Shown: one piece after another, positions 13,211 to 32,857 of the stretch
How the letters are laid out: each line of letters begins with the position of its first letter
Position numbering within the stretch: position 1 is the stretch's first letter
Assembly (NCBI GenBank): GCA_030612265.1
Contig: JAUWOE010000013.1
Coordinates: 1 to 32,881 of the forward strand
Origin: Promethearchaeum sp.
Lineage (GTDB): Archaea; Asgardarchaeota; Lokiarchaeia; Sigyniarchaeales; Promethearchaeaceae
Direction of reading: 5' to 3'
DNA: 32,881 bases
Notes under the pieces: generated by a model
Database searches by the model: none
The model's input: only the letters and a program-made list of their open reading frames with translations
What the model was told of the DNA's origin: nothing
Translations under genes and position numbers: made by a program

Positions 13211-13240
13211 ATATATCACGATTATATATTGAAATTAAAT

Positions 13241-13834
13241 ATGATTTTAACTAGCAATGCATCTCCGGATAATTCCAAACCCATTAGAAAAATTCAGAAG
13301 AAAGTAATTGTAATTGGTGAAGGGGGAGTTGGAAAAACCACTCTTCTGCATCGTTCTGTTAGTAATATATTCGTAGATTCAACCAAAATGACAATCGGGA
13401 CTGATTTCTTCATGAAAAAGATAGAAATCATTGATGATAAAAATGTTAATAAAATAATAATGTTACTATGGGACTTTGCAGGTCAGGAGCGATTTCGATT
13501 TATCTTAGCTGAATATATTAAAGGCGCAAAGGGCGTAATTTTATGCTTTGATCTAACTCGGGCATCTACACTTCAAAAATTATATGAGTGGATTGATCTT
13601 TTAAAAAAAGGAGATGCATGGGATAAACCTGATATTAAATTTTTCTTAGTTGGAACAAAAAATGATTTAGTCCATAGTACTCCAACGGCTATAACTCCGG
13701 ATCAGATTGATTTATTTAGAAGAGAGTTTAATATTGATTTATACTTTCCTACATCTGCATTGGATAGTAGTGGTGTAAATGAGCTCTTCACGAAAGTTGC
13801 TAGCAGTATGGTTGAATTAGCAAATAAAGAATAA
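13241..13834 (+). CDS. Ras/Rab-family small GTPase
   Basis: 197 residues from the ATG at 13241. All guanine-nucleotide motifs are present: G1 GEGGVGKTT (about 26-34), G2 Thr in TIGTDF (about 52), G3 WDFAGQE (about 77-83, with the catalytic Gln), G4 TKND (about 139-142, a variant of NKxD) and G5 TSA (about 171-173). It should bind and hydrolyse GTP and act as a molecular switch. Rab-like features include the WDFAGQERF switch II. It has no C-terminal Cys for prenylation. Asgard archaea have large expansions of such GTPases, and this gene is the main hint to the lineage. An upstream TTG at 13229 would add four residues but lies before the expected transcription start. A headless copy of the gene follows directly. 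Confidence 0.93.
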   Translation: MILTSNASPDNSKPIRKIQKKVIVIGEGGVGKTTLLHRSVSNIFVDSTKMTIGTDFFMKKIEIIDDKNVNKIIMLLWDFAGQERFRFILAEYIKGAKGVILCFDLTRASTLQKLYEWIDLLKKGDAWDKPDIKFFLVGTKNDLVHSTPTAITPDQIDLFRREFNIDLYFPTSALDSSGVNELFTKVASSMVELANKE

Positions 13835-13860
13835 GATAAATTTAAAGAACATTTCTACTT

Positions 13861-14229
13861 CTTTGGGATTTTGCGGGGCAAGAACGATTCAGATTTATCC
13901 TCGCTGACTATATTAAGGGTGCAAAGGGTGTGATCTTATGTTTCGACCTAACTAGGATTTCCTCGCTTCAGAAATTATATGGTTGGATCGATCTATTAAA
14001 AGAAGGGGGTGCATGGGGAAATAAAGATATTCGGTTTTTCTTAGTGGGAACAAAATGTGACTTGGTTGCCAATAATCCTTCTGCTATTGCTCCAGATCAA
14101 GTTGATATATTTAAAAAAGAATTTAATATTGATTTATACTTTGAAACATCTGCTTTGGATAGCAATGGGGTCTCAGATCTGTTCAATCAGGTTGCTAGTA
14201 GTATGGTTGAATTGGAAAATAAAAATTAA
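13861..14229 (+). pseudogene. 5'-truncated duplicate of the small GTPase
   Basis: 123 codons that match the upstream GTPase from its G3 motif (WDFAGQERFRFIL) to the stop, at roughly 80 per cent identity, including TKCD (G4) and TSA (G5). The P-loop and switch I are absent, and the frame is closed by a TAA a few codons upstream, so no nucleotide-binding protein can be made. A GTG at 13930 could start a 99-residue fragment. The bases after both stops are alike (GATAAATTTAA, GAAC, TTTC), so the 3' flank was duplicated along with the gene. This shows a tandem duplication whose second copy lost, or never had, its 5' half. Confidence 0.85.
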
Positions 14230-21027: not shown

Positions 21028-21150
21028 TTTTTGATAAGCTTCCAAAATTTCTCATCTTGCCCAAATTCATTCCTTTATTGATATTTTTTATTAGATTTCT
21101 TGAAAATCGGAAAATTTAACCATTTTGGAAGCTTTTTTAACTTGGTATTT

Positions 21151-21954
21151 ATGCTCGAATTATTTGTAAATGTTCGTAAAGAACAACCGTTATTCATGTT
21201 AACCCCTGAAAATCTAAATCCAGAAGAATATGTTAAAATTCGTTCCAAGTTAAGTGAAAATAAGATTATTAAACTCCAATTTACAGCTGAATGCACTTTG
21301 AATCAACCTGAAGAATTTCTAATCAATTTGATCCAGAAAGAATTCAAGGCGTATATTCTTTCTATCAACAATTTGGATATTATAATTTCAAATCAGCTGG
21401 TTCCTGAACTTAATTTGCCAAAAGCTATACGTAGAATAAATTCTAAAATTTTCAAAGCTGAACAATTTCCCGTTTCAATAAATCCTATAAAAAATGAACT
21501 CACTCCGATAAAAAATAGAAAATCTGTTTCGAGAAAAGAAAAAAATCGCTCTCCAAGAAAAGAAAGAGATCCAAAACCATCACCTAGAATGGATGGATAT
21601 AGAGAACCAAGAAAAGAGGGAACTCCAAACCGAGCACCTAGAAAGGACGGATATAGAGGACCAAGAAGAGAAGGAACTTCAAATCGCGCACCTAGAAAGG
21701 ACGGATATAGAGGAAGAAGAGAAAAAAGCAGTCGTCCACCTAGAAGAGATGGATATAGAGGTCCAAGAAGAGAAGAAACTTCAAACCGCGCACCTACTCG
21801 GAGAAGAGATGGTAAACCTCTTCAGAGAAGAAATGGAACTCCAAACCGCGCACCTGGAAAGGATGGATATAGAGGAAGAAGAGAAGGAAACCGCCCACCA
21901 TTTAAAAAGGAAGGAAAAAGAACTACAAGAAAAGAGGGAAATAAAACTCAATAA
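21151..21954 (+). CDS. Protein with a small N-terminal domain and an RGG-like repeat tail
   Basis: 267 residues from the ATG at 21151; an in-frame TTG at 21100 is less likely. Residues 1-110 form an alpha/beta domain I do not recognise (MLELFVNVRKEQPLF... LTPENLNPEEYVKIRSKL). From about 125 to the end the protein is a disordered, strongly basic tail built of repeats of the type RKDGYRGPRREGTSNRAP, occurring about five times with variation, plus related GYRGRRE units. Such Arg/Gly/Tyr tails bind RNA and can drive phase separation in eukaryotic proteins. The DNA is purine-rich, so a second frame is also open over the repeats (21593-21991), almost certainly by chance. An RNA-related role is inference. 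Confidence 0.75.
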   Translation: MLELFVNVRKEQPLFMLTPENLNPEEYVKIRSKLSENKIIKLQFTAECTLNQPEEFLINLIQKEFKAYILSINNLDIIISNQLVPELNLPKAIRRINSKIFKAEQFPVSINPIKNELTPIKNRKSVSRKEKNRSPRKERDPKPSPRMDGYREPRKEGTPNRAPRKDGYRGPRREGTSNRAPRKDGYRGRREKSSRPPRRDGYRGPRREETSNRAPTRRRDGKPLQRRNGTPNRAPGKDGYRGRREGNRPPFKKEGKRTTRKEGNKTQ

Positions 21955-21980
21955 TTTTTTTAGTTTTTATCGGGAATCCT

Positions 21981-22114
21981 TTATTTTTTAATGCCACCCT
22001 GTTTTCCGGTAATAGTCTCGATTTGAATTCTCCCAATATTTACATTTTTAAAAGCTTTCTCGTCAATGAACTTGACACGAACAGGTTCGGGATCTTCCTC
22101 GAATATATCATGTA
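21981..22114 (-). pseudogene. 3' remnant of an unidentified gene on the minus strand
   Basis: Reading leftward, the sequence encodes about 44 residues, DIFEEDPEPVRVKFIDEK then AFKNVNIGRIQIETITGK and GGIKK, ending in TAA at 21983-21981. There is no start codon in frame, and a TGA closes the frame at 22124-22122. The composition is that of a real protein end, but I cannot name the family. Its 5' part is missing exactly where the methyltransferase remnant begins on the other strand. Confidence 0.5.
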
Positions 22115-28571: not shown

Positions 28572-31500
28572 TTAAACAAACAAATTAATTAAAGAGCTTT
28601 CTTCATCGAGTAAGGGTAATCCATTTAGAATTTCATTCAGTTCAGGTTGAATTGCACTATATTTAGTAGAAAGGGCGTCAATGATAAAGTATAATACCTT
28701 TATTTCAAAATTTTCTAATAAAATTTTCTTTACGATTCCTAAACTACTAAGCAATGAATCAATATTTGATTTTATATCTGTTAAATTCTCCTTTGCTTGA
28801 ATTCGCGATAAAGCCGAAAGAAGAATCATCAAGCTAGAACTATCAAAATCATTTCTTCGTGCCATTCTTTTAGATAATTTTTCATATTTTCCTGCAGCAT
28901 CCAGAAATTTTTTATTATTAAGATCATCAAAGATATCTTTATAATAAGCGCGAATCATTTTTTGTCTTTTTTCTTTAAGATCTTTGAATTTTTCCTTGGT
29001 CTTATTTAAATCTTGCATGAGTTGTGAAACTTGGTTCTTTAAAAAGGTATCATCAGATTCGGAAATATCTTTGGGTTGAGATGGTTCTTCTTGATCTGAT
29101 TCTGGTTCCTTTTTCCCGTTTAAACTTGAAATTAAATGTTTGACAAATGAGGATTCCCAGTCCAGTAAGTGGAGTTTGAATTCAAATGCTACTAGTATTT
29201 CTCTTAACATGTATATTGCAATAGATTTATTCCAAAAGCGAATAAAAATATCCAATAATTGGATTTCTTCTGATTTTGCAAGTTCTTTATATTTCTTTGA
29301 TAATTGAAAAATATATTTTTCAAAAGTTTTATAGACATCTTCAGATTGCTTGATTTTTAATAATAATAAAAATCCCATAACGATTGAATCTATTGAAAAA
29401 ATATCTAAATTGCGTTTATTTAGCTCATTGACTGCATCTAAATAACAAGTAGATGCTTCATCATATTGTTGATGATAAAGATACCTTTGACATTCTCCCC
29501 AAAATTTATCCTCAAGAGTTTTCCTTTTTGACTTCAATTGTGGATTAAAGGCTAGTTTTTCAATTAATAGATCATAATTAGATGGAATTTTTTTGACATT
29601 TTCTTCAGGACTGATGGTTTTTCCTTGTAATAACGCTTTAATATCCGAATCATCACCCAAAAGTGTTTCCAAAATCAATCTTTCTTCTGGGAATAACGCT
29701 AATACATCAAATAATTTTAATGCACTTTTTATCTGCTCAGTTCTTTTAGCATTGATCATAAACAATGTATATTGAATTAATTTAATTGGAAATGTCTCAG
29801 AAAATATTCTTTTTGAGCTAGATGCTTTGAATATAAAATTATCTAATTCCTTTTGAATTAAATCAACCTTCTTAATCATAAGATAAATTAAACTCGCTAC
29901 AGCTGCACTAATCCCTGCTAGTTCGAATTTTTTTGTAGATACAAGTTTTTTTGCAATGTCAACATAAACTTCAGCAGCATCAGAAAGATTTTTTGTACTA
30001 ATTAGATCAATTCCTTTTTGGAAATAACGTTTCTTTAAACCAATTCGCATTCTCAATAAGCTTTGGGATGCCATTCGCTGATCTCTCGCTTGATTTGTTA
30101 ATTGAGAAAGTTGATCAGCGTAAATTTGCATATGTTGCTTCTGTTTTGCTAATAATGCAACCGAACTTCCTTTTTCTTCTTCAATTTTCTCCATGCGATT
30201 GAAATAAGCTCCAAAAATATCTTGATCTTTAATTTTTCTGTTATATGTTCTTGCTTCTTTCAAATCTCCTTTTTCTATATAATAATTAACTATTAATGAA
30301 AGAAGGGGATCTAAATTCACTTCTTTTTCTTCAAAATAACTTTTGATGACCTGTTCAATTTGATGTATTATATCTACACCTTTTAAGATTGATTCTCCAT
30401 CGCTTTTCTTTGCTATTTTAATTCCCAAATCTTTTAGAAATTCAATATATATTTCAGAAAATCTTTTTGCTTCATCGTAAAGAAGATGATTACGGTAAAG
30501 CTTTATTAAAGCAGTCAAAATATTCTCAAATTCAACTGAATCTATTGATTGAGAAATTTTTTTCACAGAATTTGTGATATCATTTAATTTTAATTTTAAA
30601 AATTTACTTCTACGAATTTCAGGTAGAAAATGTATTTCATTTATAAATTTACCAAGCATATCTCCTTGAATATATATATCAAAAACTTTTTCCAATACAT
30701 CAAAAGAAAGAATTTCCATACCAATAGAACGCAACCAGTCAGCTTGCTTTTTTACCAATAAGGATGCCTGATTAAAATCTTTATTATAAACTAAAAATTC
30801 AGATTTTTTATATATATCTTTATTCATTTCATAAAAAATAAGACTCTCTTCCTTAACATAATCAAATAAGAAATCACACATTTTCTTTAGATCTTTTAAT
30901 TCGTATTGTTTTGTTTCTTTTTTGTATTTTTCTTCTACCTTTACGGATGCTTTTGTTAATTGTTTCTTCAAGCTATTTGATTGTATCTTTTTAACAATAG
31001 CTTCAACTTTTTGAAAATCATGAGCTTTAATGAATAAATGCCCCATTTGTAATAGATATTGATCAATATTCTCTGATTTGACATCAAAAGATTCCCAAAT
31101 ATTATATAATTCATCTAAAGTTAATTTTGCAGTATACACATCATTATTGTTTAAGTGTTTCTCTAAAATTCTTTTTAAAATCTTAACAACTTTATTTGCA
31201 AAAACCTTAATTGATTCAAACAATCCCGCTTTTTGATATCTTTGAAAGCATAGATATAATTGTGATTTAGCATATTCATCTTGTCCAATTGAAGATAAAT
31301 AATCTGCAGACCCCGCTATTTTTTGAGTGACCTCTTCTAATATTTTGACCAATTCATTATGATCAAATTTTTCTAGTAAAGCAAATGCGTTTTGGGTTTC
31401 ACAAGCAGCAATCCAAGAATCAATTGCTAATGTAAAACTTTTCTTCATAAGTTCTGTATTTGATAGCTCAATTCGTGCCCAGTTTCCCGCCATCTCAAAT

Positions 31501-32306
31501 AATTGAGCGGCATCTCCAAATTTGTTCTCTCTAAAAAGACGATTTCCTTGCGAGATTAACTGATCAACATGCATTTTTCGAAAACGATCTGAAAACACAG
31601 GATTAAAGCTTGAAATTATATTTGCTGCTCTTAGAAATTCACCATCTCTTGAATAAAGCCCTGCTGCTTGTTCGGCATAAATAGTCCAATCGAAATCTTG
31701 ATTTTTTCGAGCAATTTTCGCAATTTTTTCTACTAATTTTCCTGCTTCTTTCCAATTTTGTTGTTCAATTTCGAAATTTACTCTTTTAAAAAGTGAGGGG
31801 ATCCTTAACCATGCATTTCTTTGTAATATAATCATATCTCCGCCTATTATACTTTCGGTTAGGGATTTAATTATCATTTTCAAGACATTTGGGCTCCCTA
31901 AATCAGAAATACATGCTTCAAATGGATAATCTGTCCAAATCCATTCTAATAATTCATTAGCTGAGGTATCAATCACATTATTTTTATCTCGAAAAAGGAC
32001 TATTGTATGAATGTCTCTTTTCATTCCTTGGATTATTTTCATCAATTCTTTAAAAATTTCAATATCACTTTCGGAATTAGGGTTTAAAAAATATAATATC
32101 CCGTCTGCCATAGATATCAGATTATCATAGTCTGCGTTTATGTTCATAGGCACTTCAAAAGTAAGGTTTATGTTATCTTCTTGATATTCCCATTGAGAAA
32201 CATCCTCAATTGAAACATTCTCAAGACCTCCTTTTTGTAAATATTCTAAAACCGTTTCGTTTTCTCCTAATACTAAAATATTAAACATATATGACATTTC
32301 AGACAT
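28572..32306 (-). CDS. Giant pseudo-GTPase/alpha-solenoid fusion protein (1244 aa)
   Basis: 1244 residues, the largest gene here. Residues 1-155 follow the strand order of a Ras-type GTPase: beta1 FNILVLG, a switch-like region, MADGILYFLNP at the beta4 position, TIVLFRDKNNV where G4 should be, and a final helix with NVLKMIIKSLTESI. But the P-loop GxxxxGK[ST], the DxxG and the N/TKxD are all absent, so it should not bind GTP in the normal way. From about 170 to the end it is helical, with TPR-like pairs such as WKEAGKLVEKIAKIARK and NKFGDAAQLFEMAGNWARIE; a charged linker and coiled coil lie near 1085-1130. The whole is a cytoplasmic scaffold with no transmembrane segment. A trafficking role is speculative. 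I know of no named family with this architecture. Confidence 0.75.
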   Translation of the reverse strand: MSEMSYMFNILVLGENETVLEYLQKGGLENVSIEDVSQWEYQEDNINLTFEVPMNINADYDNLISMADGILYFLNPNSESDIEIFKELMKIIQGMKRDIHTIVLFRDKNNVIDTSANELLEWIWTDYPFEACISDLGSPNVLKMIIKSLTESIIGGDMIILQRNAWLRIPSLFKRVNFEIEQQNWKEAGKLVEKIAKIARKNQDFDWTIYAEQAAGLYSRDGEFLRAANIISSFNPVFSDRFRKMHVDQLISQGNRLFRENKFGDAAQLFEMAGNWARIELSNTELMKKSFTLAIDSWIAACETQNAFALLEKFDHNELVKILEEVTQKIAGSADYLSSIGQDEYAKSQLYLCFQRYQKAGLFESIKVFANKVVKILKRILEKHLNNNDVYTAKLTLDELYNIWESFDVKSENIDQYLLQMGHLFIKAHDFQKVEAIVKKIQSNSLKKQLTKASVKVEEKYKKETKQYELKDLKKMCDFLFDYVKEESLIFYEMNKDIYKKSEFLVYNKDFNQASLLVKKQADWLRSIGMEILSFDVLEKVFDIYIQGDMLGKFINEIHFLPEIRRSKFLKLKLNDITNSVKKISQSIDSVEFENILTALIKLYRNHLLYDEAKRFSEIYIEFLKDLGIKIAKKSDGESILKGVDIIHQIEQVIKSYFEEKEVNLDPLLSLIVNYYIEKGDLKEARTYNRKIKDQDIFGAYFNRMEKIEEEKGSSVALLAKQKQHMQIYADQLSQLTNQARDQRMASQSLLRMRIGLKKRYFQKGIDLISTKNLSDAAEVYVDIAKKLVSTKKFELAGISAAVASLIYLMIKKVDLIQKELDNFIFKASSSKRIFSETFPIKLIQYTLFMINAKRTEQIKSALKLFDVLALFPEERLILETLLGDDSDIKALLQGKTISPEENVKKIPSNYDLLIEKLAFNPQLKSKRKTLEDKFWGECQRYLYHQQYDEASTCYLDAVNELNKRNLDIFSIDSIVMGFLLLLKIKQSEDVYKTFEKYIFQLSKKYKELAKSEEIQLLDIFIRFWNKSIAIYMLREILVAFEFKLHLLDWESSFVKHLISSLNGKKEPESDQEEPSQPKDISESDDTFLKNQVSQLMQDLNKTKEKFKDLKEKRQKMIRAYYKDIFDDLNNKKFLDAAGKYEKLSKRMARRNDFDSSSLMILLSALSRIQAKENLTDIKSNIDSLLSSLGIVKKILLENFEIKVLYFIIDALSTKYSAIQPELNEILNGLPLLDEESSLINLFV

Positions 32307-32412
32307 TGAATTTATTCCTAATTTCTCCGTTTTTTTCTATTCTTACAAGTATTTTAGCTCCCTATTTTAAATAATTTTTTCCCCTTCCTTTAACAAAATG
32401 TAAAAAATTTTT

Positions 32413-32433
32413 GAATCATATTCGAATCATATT
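32413..32433 (+). repeat. Two direct copies of GAATCATATT at 11-base spacing
   Basis: GAATCATATT occurs at 32413-32422 and 32424-32433, one helical turn apart, directly upstream of the start codon at 32438 in the region shared with the divergent 1244-residue gene. It could be an operator, or chance in AT-rich DNA. Confidence 0.4.
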
Positions 32434-32437
32434 ACAT

Positions 32438-32857
32438 ATGGTAGATTATGAGTCAAAAAAGCTCGCCACATGCTTCATTCAACCATTTTCTCAAAATATT
32501 CAAATTCCATCTAATATTTTTGATGAGATTCAGCCCATCGGGAAGAATGTTGTTGCTGTTATTCCGGGTGAATCTAAGAAATTAACATTTTTCTTAACTA
32601 ATGCAGATAAAGTACTTTTTATTAAACTCATTTTAGATAAATCAAGTTTAAACGAAGTTTTCTTTACATCTTTAAGAGAAACAATGATTGAACTTAAAAT
32701 TGAAAACCTTTTTTCAACCGGGGTTTGTTTTAAAGAAGAAATATGTGTTTGGGAAGGAGTATTTGAATTTGACAAAGGTGATTATAATGAAATCCAAGAA
32801 AAATTCTCCAAAGTTACCCATGTAAAGAAAGCAAAATTCGAGAAACTTAATGTCTAA
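32438..32857 (+). CDS. Small alpha/beta protein of unknown function (139 aa)
   Basis: 139 residues from the ATG at 32438; an in-frame TTG at 32411 would add nine residues but lies in the operator-like repeat. The sequence alternates strands and helices (KKLATCFIQPF, NVVAVIPGE, KVLFIKLILDK, LRETMIELKIENL, ICVWEGVFEF), compatible with a ferredoxin-like or ACT-type ligand-binding domain, but no diagnostic motif is present. No signal peptide or membrane segment is seen. It is divergent from the pseudo-GTPase/solenoid gene with a shared 130-base control region, so a functional link is possible. Function is unknown. Confidence 0.6.
   Translation: MVDYESKKLATCFIQPFSQNIQIPSNIFDEIQPIGKNVVAVIPGESKKLTFFLTNADKVLFIKLILDKSSLNEVFFTSLRETMIELKIENLFSTGVCFKEEICVWEGVFEFDKGDYNEIQEKFSKVTHVKKAKFEKLNV

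Follow-up and report, generated by a model that had tools for sequence, protein, structure and literature searches.

Does the large protein encoded toward one end of a Lokiarchaeal contig carry a small-GTPase domain that has lost its nucleotide site, and if so, what would such a protein do? The stretch analysed here, called the window throughout, comprises 32,881 nucleotides of contig JAUWOE010000013.1 from a Promethearchaeum sp. (assembly GCA_030612265.1). On its minus strand, from 32306 to 28572, it holds an open reading frame (ORF) of 1244 amino acids with an ATG start and zero internal stops, present as a single copy in its genome. The original prediction, made from the letters alone, had read this ORF as a small-GTPase fold without nucleotide motifs joined to a long helical solenoid, and the ORF proved genuine. 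We consider it probable, at roughly 60%, that the protein is a lineage-conserved, nucleotide-free pseudo-GTPase in one chain with a solenoid of about 1075 residues, working as a constitutive scaffold.

Searches with single sequences gave no assignment. For the whole protein, Pfam gave nothing above its cut-off and NCBIfam and PDB gave no match at all, and none of the N-terminal domains taken singly passed a Pfam threshold. A single-sequence scan of the genome contigs matched only two congeners, and the viral contigs searched contained no relative. A profile of the full family, compared with PDB, returned only chance matches to ribosomal helices.

The N-terminal domain was also compared as a profile. 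When 61 homologous N-domains were aligned by hhalign with 33 Rab-like GTPases from the window's genome, the match reached 93.8% probability (E 1.7e-7) over 160 columns, running in register from strand beta1 to the last helix. The controls stayed far lower, at 0.47% for receiver domains, 0.2% for the profile in reverse and no more than 3.6% for 100 column shuffles; the profile-profile score was 51.4, compared with 13.1 ± 2.3 (maximum 21.7) for the shuffles. Rag/Arf-like GTPases matched at 41%, and ten neighbouring protein families at about 1% or less. A hidden Markov model (HMM) of the domain was also run over the 79 genomes of the order, where the best E value per genome for matches outside the family was 3.7e-7; Pfam recognised a Ras, Arf or Rag domain in all ten such matches tested. 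These profile comparisons place residues 1-158 in the Ras-superfamily fold, as a homologue of Ras/Rab-type GTPases, and by profile its nearest relatives are the Rab-like GTPases. A receiver domain, which the original prediction had named as the alternative, was rejected on its hhalign value.

Structural comparison agreed in direction. Against PDB, the N-domain profile matched septin Cdc10, in the right register and not significantly (E 0.09). An AlphaFold2 (AF2) model built from three near-identical sequences showed the order E-H-E-E-H-E-H-E-H-H, which fits the six-stranded Ras topology with its antiparallel beta2-beta3 except that beta6 was not seen, at a predicted local distance difference test score (pLDDT) of 51 and a predicted template modelling score (pTM) of 0.50. 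A Foldseek search of this model against PDB returned mostly Ras, Rab and Rho structures, none of them significant (best E 0.16). Because the model is weak and drew on three near-identical sequences, we counted it only as consistent with a Ras fold. Separately, a tandem protein was seen in another Lokiarchaeon (locus L137:3-1292, minus strand, genome G135), in which residues 1-170 form a Rab-like GTPase whose motifs are intact and a second, degenerate G-domain, at about 220-395, shows a match to the N-domain profile, giving an active and a pseudo-GTPase in one chain.

The nucleotide motifs were absent throughout the family. The P-loop GxxxxGK[ST] occurred in 0 of 61 N-domains, compared with 32 of the 33 GTPases of the same genome, and DxxG and [NT]KxD strings turned up only by chance, off the G3 and G4 positions, which stand empty. 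The loss predicted for the P-loop, DxxG and NKxD of this one protein thus extends to every member, including the most distant relatives (taxonomic family f4), and no homologue with intact motifs was found among the 61. As the f4 relatives are dead too, the loss predates the radiation of the order. The three strings originally taken as landmarks of the fold, FNILVLG, MADGILYFLNP and TIVLFRDKNN, were located at residues 8-14, 66-76 and 101-110. Conservation lies elsewhere than at the nucleotide site, namely in the ADGI-YF-NP strand, R97-x-I-P, W124 and the hinge NAWxR-P; D68, P76 and W166 are invariant, and R97, W124 and R168 are conserved in more than 90% of members.

The remaining ~1075 residues (171-1244) were modelled by AF2 as all-alpha, with about 50 helices and no strand, at pLDDT 50 and pTM 0.29. 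Foldseek compared this pLDDT-50 model with TPR superhelices (Naa15, subunits of the anaphase-promoting complex (APC/C), IFT-A and LGN) at TM-scores of 0.07-0.12 over the query, and such matches support a helical superhelix and nothing narrower. By Pfam, the window protein scored 14.3 bits for TPR, below the cut-off of 27, and TPR_2 matched weakly in 11 of 20 family members (best 3e-6). The predicted TPR-like alpha-solenoid was accordingly retained as a long all-helical region, on a low-confidence model, and its TPR character only in part. A SNAP-like middle solenoid was considered and set aside, having no Pfam support in the family. SNAP-like proteins do form another Asgard family, of about 415 amino acids, whose N-terminal half is SNAP-like TPR (5e-6 to Pfam SNAP) and whose C-terminal half is beta and seems Ig-like (L178:682-1929, minus strand; L179:3-1292; L180:745-1863; L182:1252-2496). 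Adjoining these genes, on the opposite strand, are SNAP-like helical proteins of about 205-240 amino acids (L178:62-673 and L182:2506-3144).

The C-terminal third had a structure that the original prediction did not contain: three tandem modules of about 155 residues each, M1, M2 and M3. In twelve species, and at each of the three positions, R-x26-Y and a late E are invariant. Relatives of about 1090 amino acids have two modules instead of three, the missing stretch being roughly M2. Very long helices were predicted by AF2, at low confidence, at about 716-770, 1013-1062 and 1084-1129. A coiled-coil insert had been proposed for the solenoid; long helices are indeed there, but they are better described as the leading helices of a triplicated module (those of M1 and M3) than as an insert. 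The module also aligned with a domain at the C-terminus of small Asgard proteins (hhalign 97.4%, E 1e-11, 118 columns), and so links the 1244-residue protein to a wider, unannotated Asgard family of small Cys-rich proteins. These small module-bearing proteins have 270-345 amino acids, of which the C-terminal ~120 are related to the module; several have a Cys-rich N-terminus, and they belong to no Pfam family (L176, L177, L183, L184, L185, L186 and L189).

The search for homologues in Asgard genomes, suggested at the outset, found the family order-wide. It was present in 72 of the 228 Asgard genomes searched, 71 of which are among the 79 genomes of its own order, and in 17 of 17 high-quality genomes of that order (completeness of 90% or more, contamination of 5% or less); within the order it is near-universal and single-copy. 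The lone match outside (genome G201) was weak (E 1.8e-4) and covered only part of the solenoid, and a profile search added four further genomes at E 7e-5 to 2e-3; no clear member of the family emerged from the other Asgard archaea. Full-length identity was about 39% to a sister genus, 28-32% to the large family f3 and about 20% to f4. Part of genus g14 has cleanly lost the gene (L192 in genome G157, L194 in G155 and L195 in G153).

Selection was estimated against a congener 87% identical to the window protein. The ratio of nonsynonymous to synonymous substitution rates (dN/dS) was 0.12 overall, 0.10 for the N-domain and 0.16 for the C-terminal modules. A neighbouring enzyme gene gave the same value of 0.12. 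This is a working gene under purifying selection; a decaying or spurious ORF was ruled out on the same figure. The identity of 28-39% across the order, the dN/dS value and a profile score far above 100 shuffles together indicate that the family signal is more than chance. In one congener (L031, genome G090) a single in-frame TAG at residue 260 splits an otherwise intact gene, either as a sequencing error or as a recent nonsense change.

Table 1. Features of the 1244-residue protein and its divergent neighbour, in window coordinates.
Feature	Position	Strand	Basis
Putative pseudo-GTPase/helical-solenoid protein, whole ORF, 1244 aa	28572..32306	-	ORF; homologues in 71/79 genomes of own order, mostly full-length
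Predicted N-terminal pseudo-GTPase domain, residues 1-158	31833..32306	-	hhalign 93.8% to own-genome Rab-like GTPases; next profile matches are GTPases; 0/61 P-loops
Strand beta1 FNILVLG and shortened, degenerate P-loop position, residues 8-19	32250..32285	-	Alignment, motif scan
ADGILYFLNP, strand beta4, residues 67-76	32079..32108	-	D68 and P76 invariant; G69 98% in family
TIVLFRDKNN, strand beta5, place of NKxD, motif lost, residues 101-110	31977..32006	-	Alignment, motif scan
Hinge NAWLRIP between G-domain and solenoid, residues 164-170	31797..31817	-	Conservation; W166 invariant
Predicted helical solenoid, partly TPR-like, residues 171-715	30162..31796	-	AF2 all-helix; Foldseek TPR superhelices; weak half-to-half self-similarity (hhalign 70%)
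Module M1, residues 728-882	29661..30125	-	hhalign M1-M3 99.7%, M1-M2 99.3%; R..Y..E signature; match 29664-30119
Module M2, residues 905-1062	29121..29594	-	hhalign M2-M3 98.6%; match 29136-29594
Module M3, residues 1088-1242	28581..29045	-	hhalign to M1/M2; signature
Divergent neighbour c5, 148 aa	32411..32857	+	No known family; first gene of opposite-strand cluster c5-c2 (winged helix-turn-helix)-c1-c3, conserved within this family of genomes

The gene has a conserved divergent neighbour, which the original prediction had not noted. This gene, c1, encodes a helical protein of 225 amino acids from no known family, and it was divergent to the family gene in all 57 genomes that carry both on one contig. 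The distance was 118-302 bp in 52 of the 57 and 1.3-3.2 kb in five members of families f1 and f2, in which c5 and the winged-helix gene lie in between. In every readable locus that covers the stretch beyond c1, the gene that follows is c3, for a membrane protein of the DUF2085 family. The window itself ends in c5, and the continuation c5-c2-GNAT-c1-c3 opens contig C183 of the same bin. On C183 (L191, G000:C183, 3-281) c5 is a second copy, slightly different from that at window 32411-32857; given this difference, C183 may stem from a close strain and the bin may be mixed.

The original prediction gave weight to a Rab-like GTPase gene in the same window, and this was not borne out. The gene lies about 15 kb away and has no counterpart adjacent to the family gene in relatives. 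With about 52 Ras-type matches in the 3.77 Mb of the genome, about 0.45 would be expected in any stretch of this size, so its presence is best taken as coincidence, and it was rejected as a partner. A link to trafficking likewise found no support. Directly downstream of the full Rab-like gene (13229-13834), a truncated copy without the P-loop part (13930-14229; GTPase-like match 13852-14205) indicates local duplication and decay. Elsewhere in the window, 21100-21954 encodes a 284-residue protein whose second half is rich in Arg, Lys and Gly with repeated 'RKDGYRGPRREG' units; an open frame at 21593-21991 overlaps this gene.

What the protein does has to be judged from these features. The sequences show the fold assignment, the motif loss, the triplicated module, the purifying selection and the divergent pairing with c1, whereas the absence of nucleotide binding, the scaffolding and the choice of partners are inferences. 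A domain without a P-loop is no ordinary switch, and since the motifs are gone and relatives occur in nearly all Lokiarchaea, the protein probably serves as a fixed scaffold and not as a switch. The G-domain would neither bind nor hydrolyse GTP; it would instead offer a fixed, conserved docking or capping surface that binds protein or stabilises the solenoid, comparable to CENP-M with CENP-I. The solenoid and its modules would gather partner proteins, the whole serving as a constitutive scaffold. The first candidate partner is the helical protein c1; the membrane protein c3, whose gene follows that of c1, may be another, and with c3 in the cluster a role in membrane traffic is possible. Several observations count against such an arrangement. 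Neither three-dimensional model is confident (pLDDT 51 for the N-domain and 50 for the C-terminal part). The three g14 genomes without the family gene have nevertheless kept c1 and c3, and in two of them (L192 and L194) a TFIIB-like gene, c6, now abuts c1; c1 therefore does not depend everywhere on the family protein, and an obligatory complex of the two was ruled out. In f4, moreover, c1 is not nearby, the two genes lying on different contigs.

The identity of the domain and the emptiness of its site bear on two of the alternatives. That the N-domain might be an unrelated Rossmann-like alpha/beta domain, such as a receiver, resembling a GTPase in pattern only, draws on the failure of every single sequence at the Pfam threshold and on the weak AF2 model; with a full-length, in-register GTPase match, outside HMM hits that are GTPases, and values of 0.5% for receivers and about 1% or less for other alpha/beta neighbour families, we hold it to be the least probable account. 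Continued binding of a nucleotide or another small ligand in an unusual way, making the N-domain a sensor or switch, would fit the strong constraint on the fold (dN/dS 0.10) and the conserved polar residues D59, D61, D68 and R97. This too is highly improbable, given that the P-loop is shortened and lacks Gly-Lys-Ser/Thr in 61 of 61 domains, that the G3 and G4 places are vacant, and that most of the conserved residues sit away from the nucleotide loops.

Other alternatives accept a dead G-domain and differ over its company. It could pair with active small GTPases or their regulators, the protein being a platform akin to a guanine-nucleotide exchange factor (GEF), a GTPase-activating protein (GAP) or an effector. 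The genome has dozens of Rab- and Rag-like GTPases, a relative joins an active Rab to a degenerate G-domain in one chain (L137), f3, the largest family, has an Arf/Rag-like GTPase gene (c4) downstream, beyond the TFIIB-like c6, and the GAP activity of p190RhoGAP drops when its pseudoGTPase domains are deleted (PMC5593906). No GTPase gene is adjacent in f4 or in the window's own family f1, however, and Pfam detected no known GEF or GAP domain, and we regard this as unlikely. A scaffold for a signalling or transcription-linked complex, and not for membranes, is rather doubtful: the winged-helix c2 and the TFIIB-like c6 stand in conserved neighbourhoods together with a helical protein of no known family, but such regulators may merely control the cluster or be chance neighbours, and c3 in the same cluster is a membrane protein. 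The constitutive scaffold remains our preferred reading of the protein.

Small GTPases are present by the dozen in Asgard archaea. For strain MK-D1, 74 small-GTPase sequences have been described, of which 26 carry roadblock or longin domains (PMC10933270). The window protein shares their fold superfamily and their organisms; those Rab- and Rag-like proteins are recognised as GTPases, whereas here the motifs are gone and the domain is fused to a solenoid. As a candidate component of a large complex, it is one whose partners would tell what at least one of these G-domain systems builds. In the literature covered, which left subscription papers and preprints out of scope, we found no archaeal pseudo-GTPase and no fusion of a GTPase fold to a solenoid.

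Among eukaryotic systems, the TPR superhelix scaffolds (Naa15, APC/C subunits, IFT-A and LGN) are alike in their all-alpha superhelix and were the best Foldseek matches of the low-confidence model, although scores of that size on such a model are no evidence of membership, and the module, with a signature of its own, differs from a plain TPR. The class-i, no-nucleotide pseudoGTPases p190RhoGAP and the dynein light intermediate chain (PMC5593906) likewise embed motif-less Ras-type domains in large proteins, where these bind protein or serve structurally, but alongside different partner domains. The closest design is that of CENP-M, which has a G-protein fold, is unable to bind GTP, and stabilises its predicted alpha-solenoid partner CENP-I and their complex (PMC4080450). 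In this kinetochore HIKM complex, too, a GTP-incapable small-GTPase fold and a long predicted alpha-solenoid act as a structural unit, there as two chains at eukaryotic kinetochores and here as one archaeal chain. PDB searches with the protein, with its N-domain profile and with the profile of the whole family matched neither CENP-M nor CENP-I; as no sequence relation was detected, the likeness is likely one of analogy. We give even odds to the view that a Ras-type pseudo-GTPase was fused to a solenoid before the order diversified and is now order-wide, a prokaryotic counterpart, in one chain and with a tandem module of its own, of the dead-G-protein/solenoid design so far known from eukaryotes. 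If so, archaea too would have come to use a dead G-domain as a structural element.

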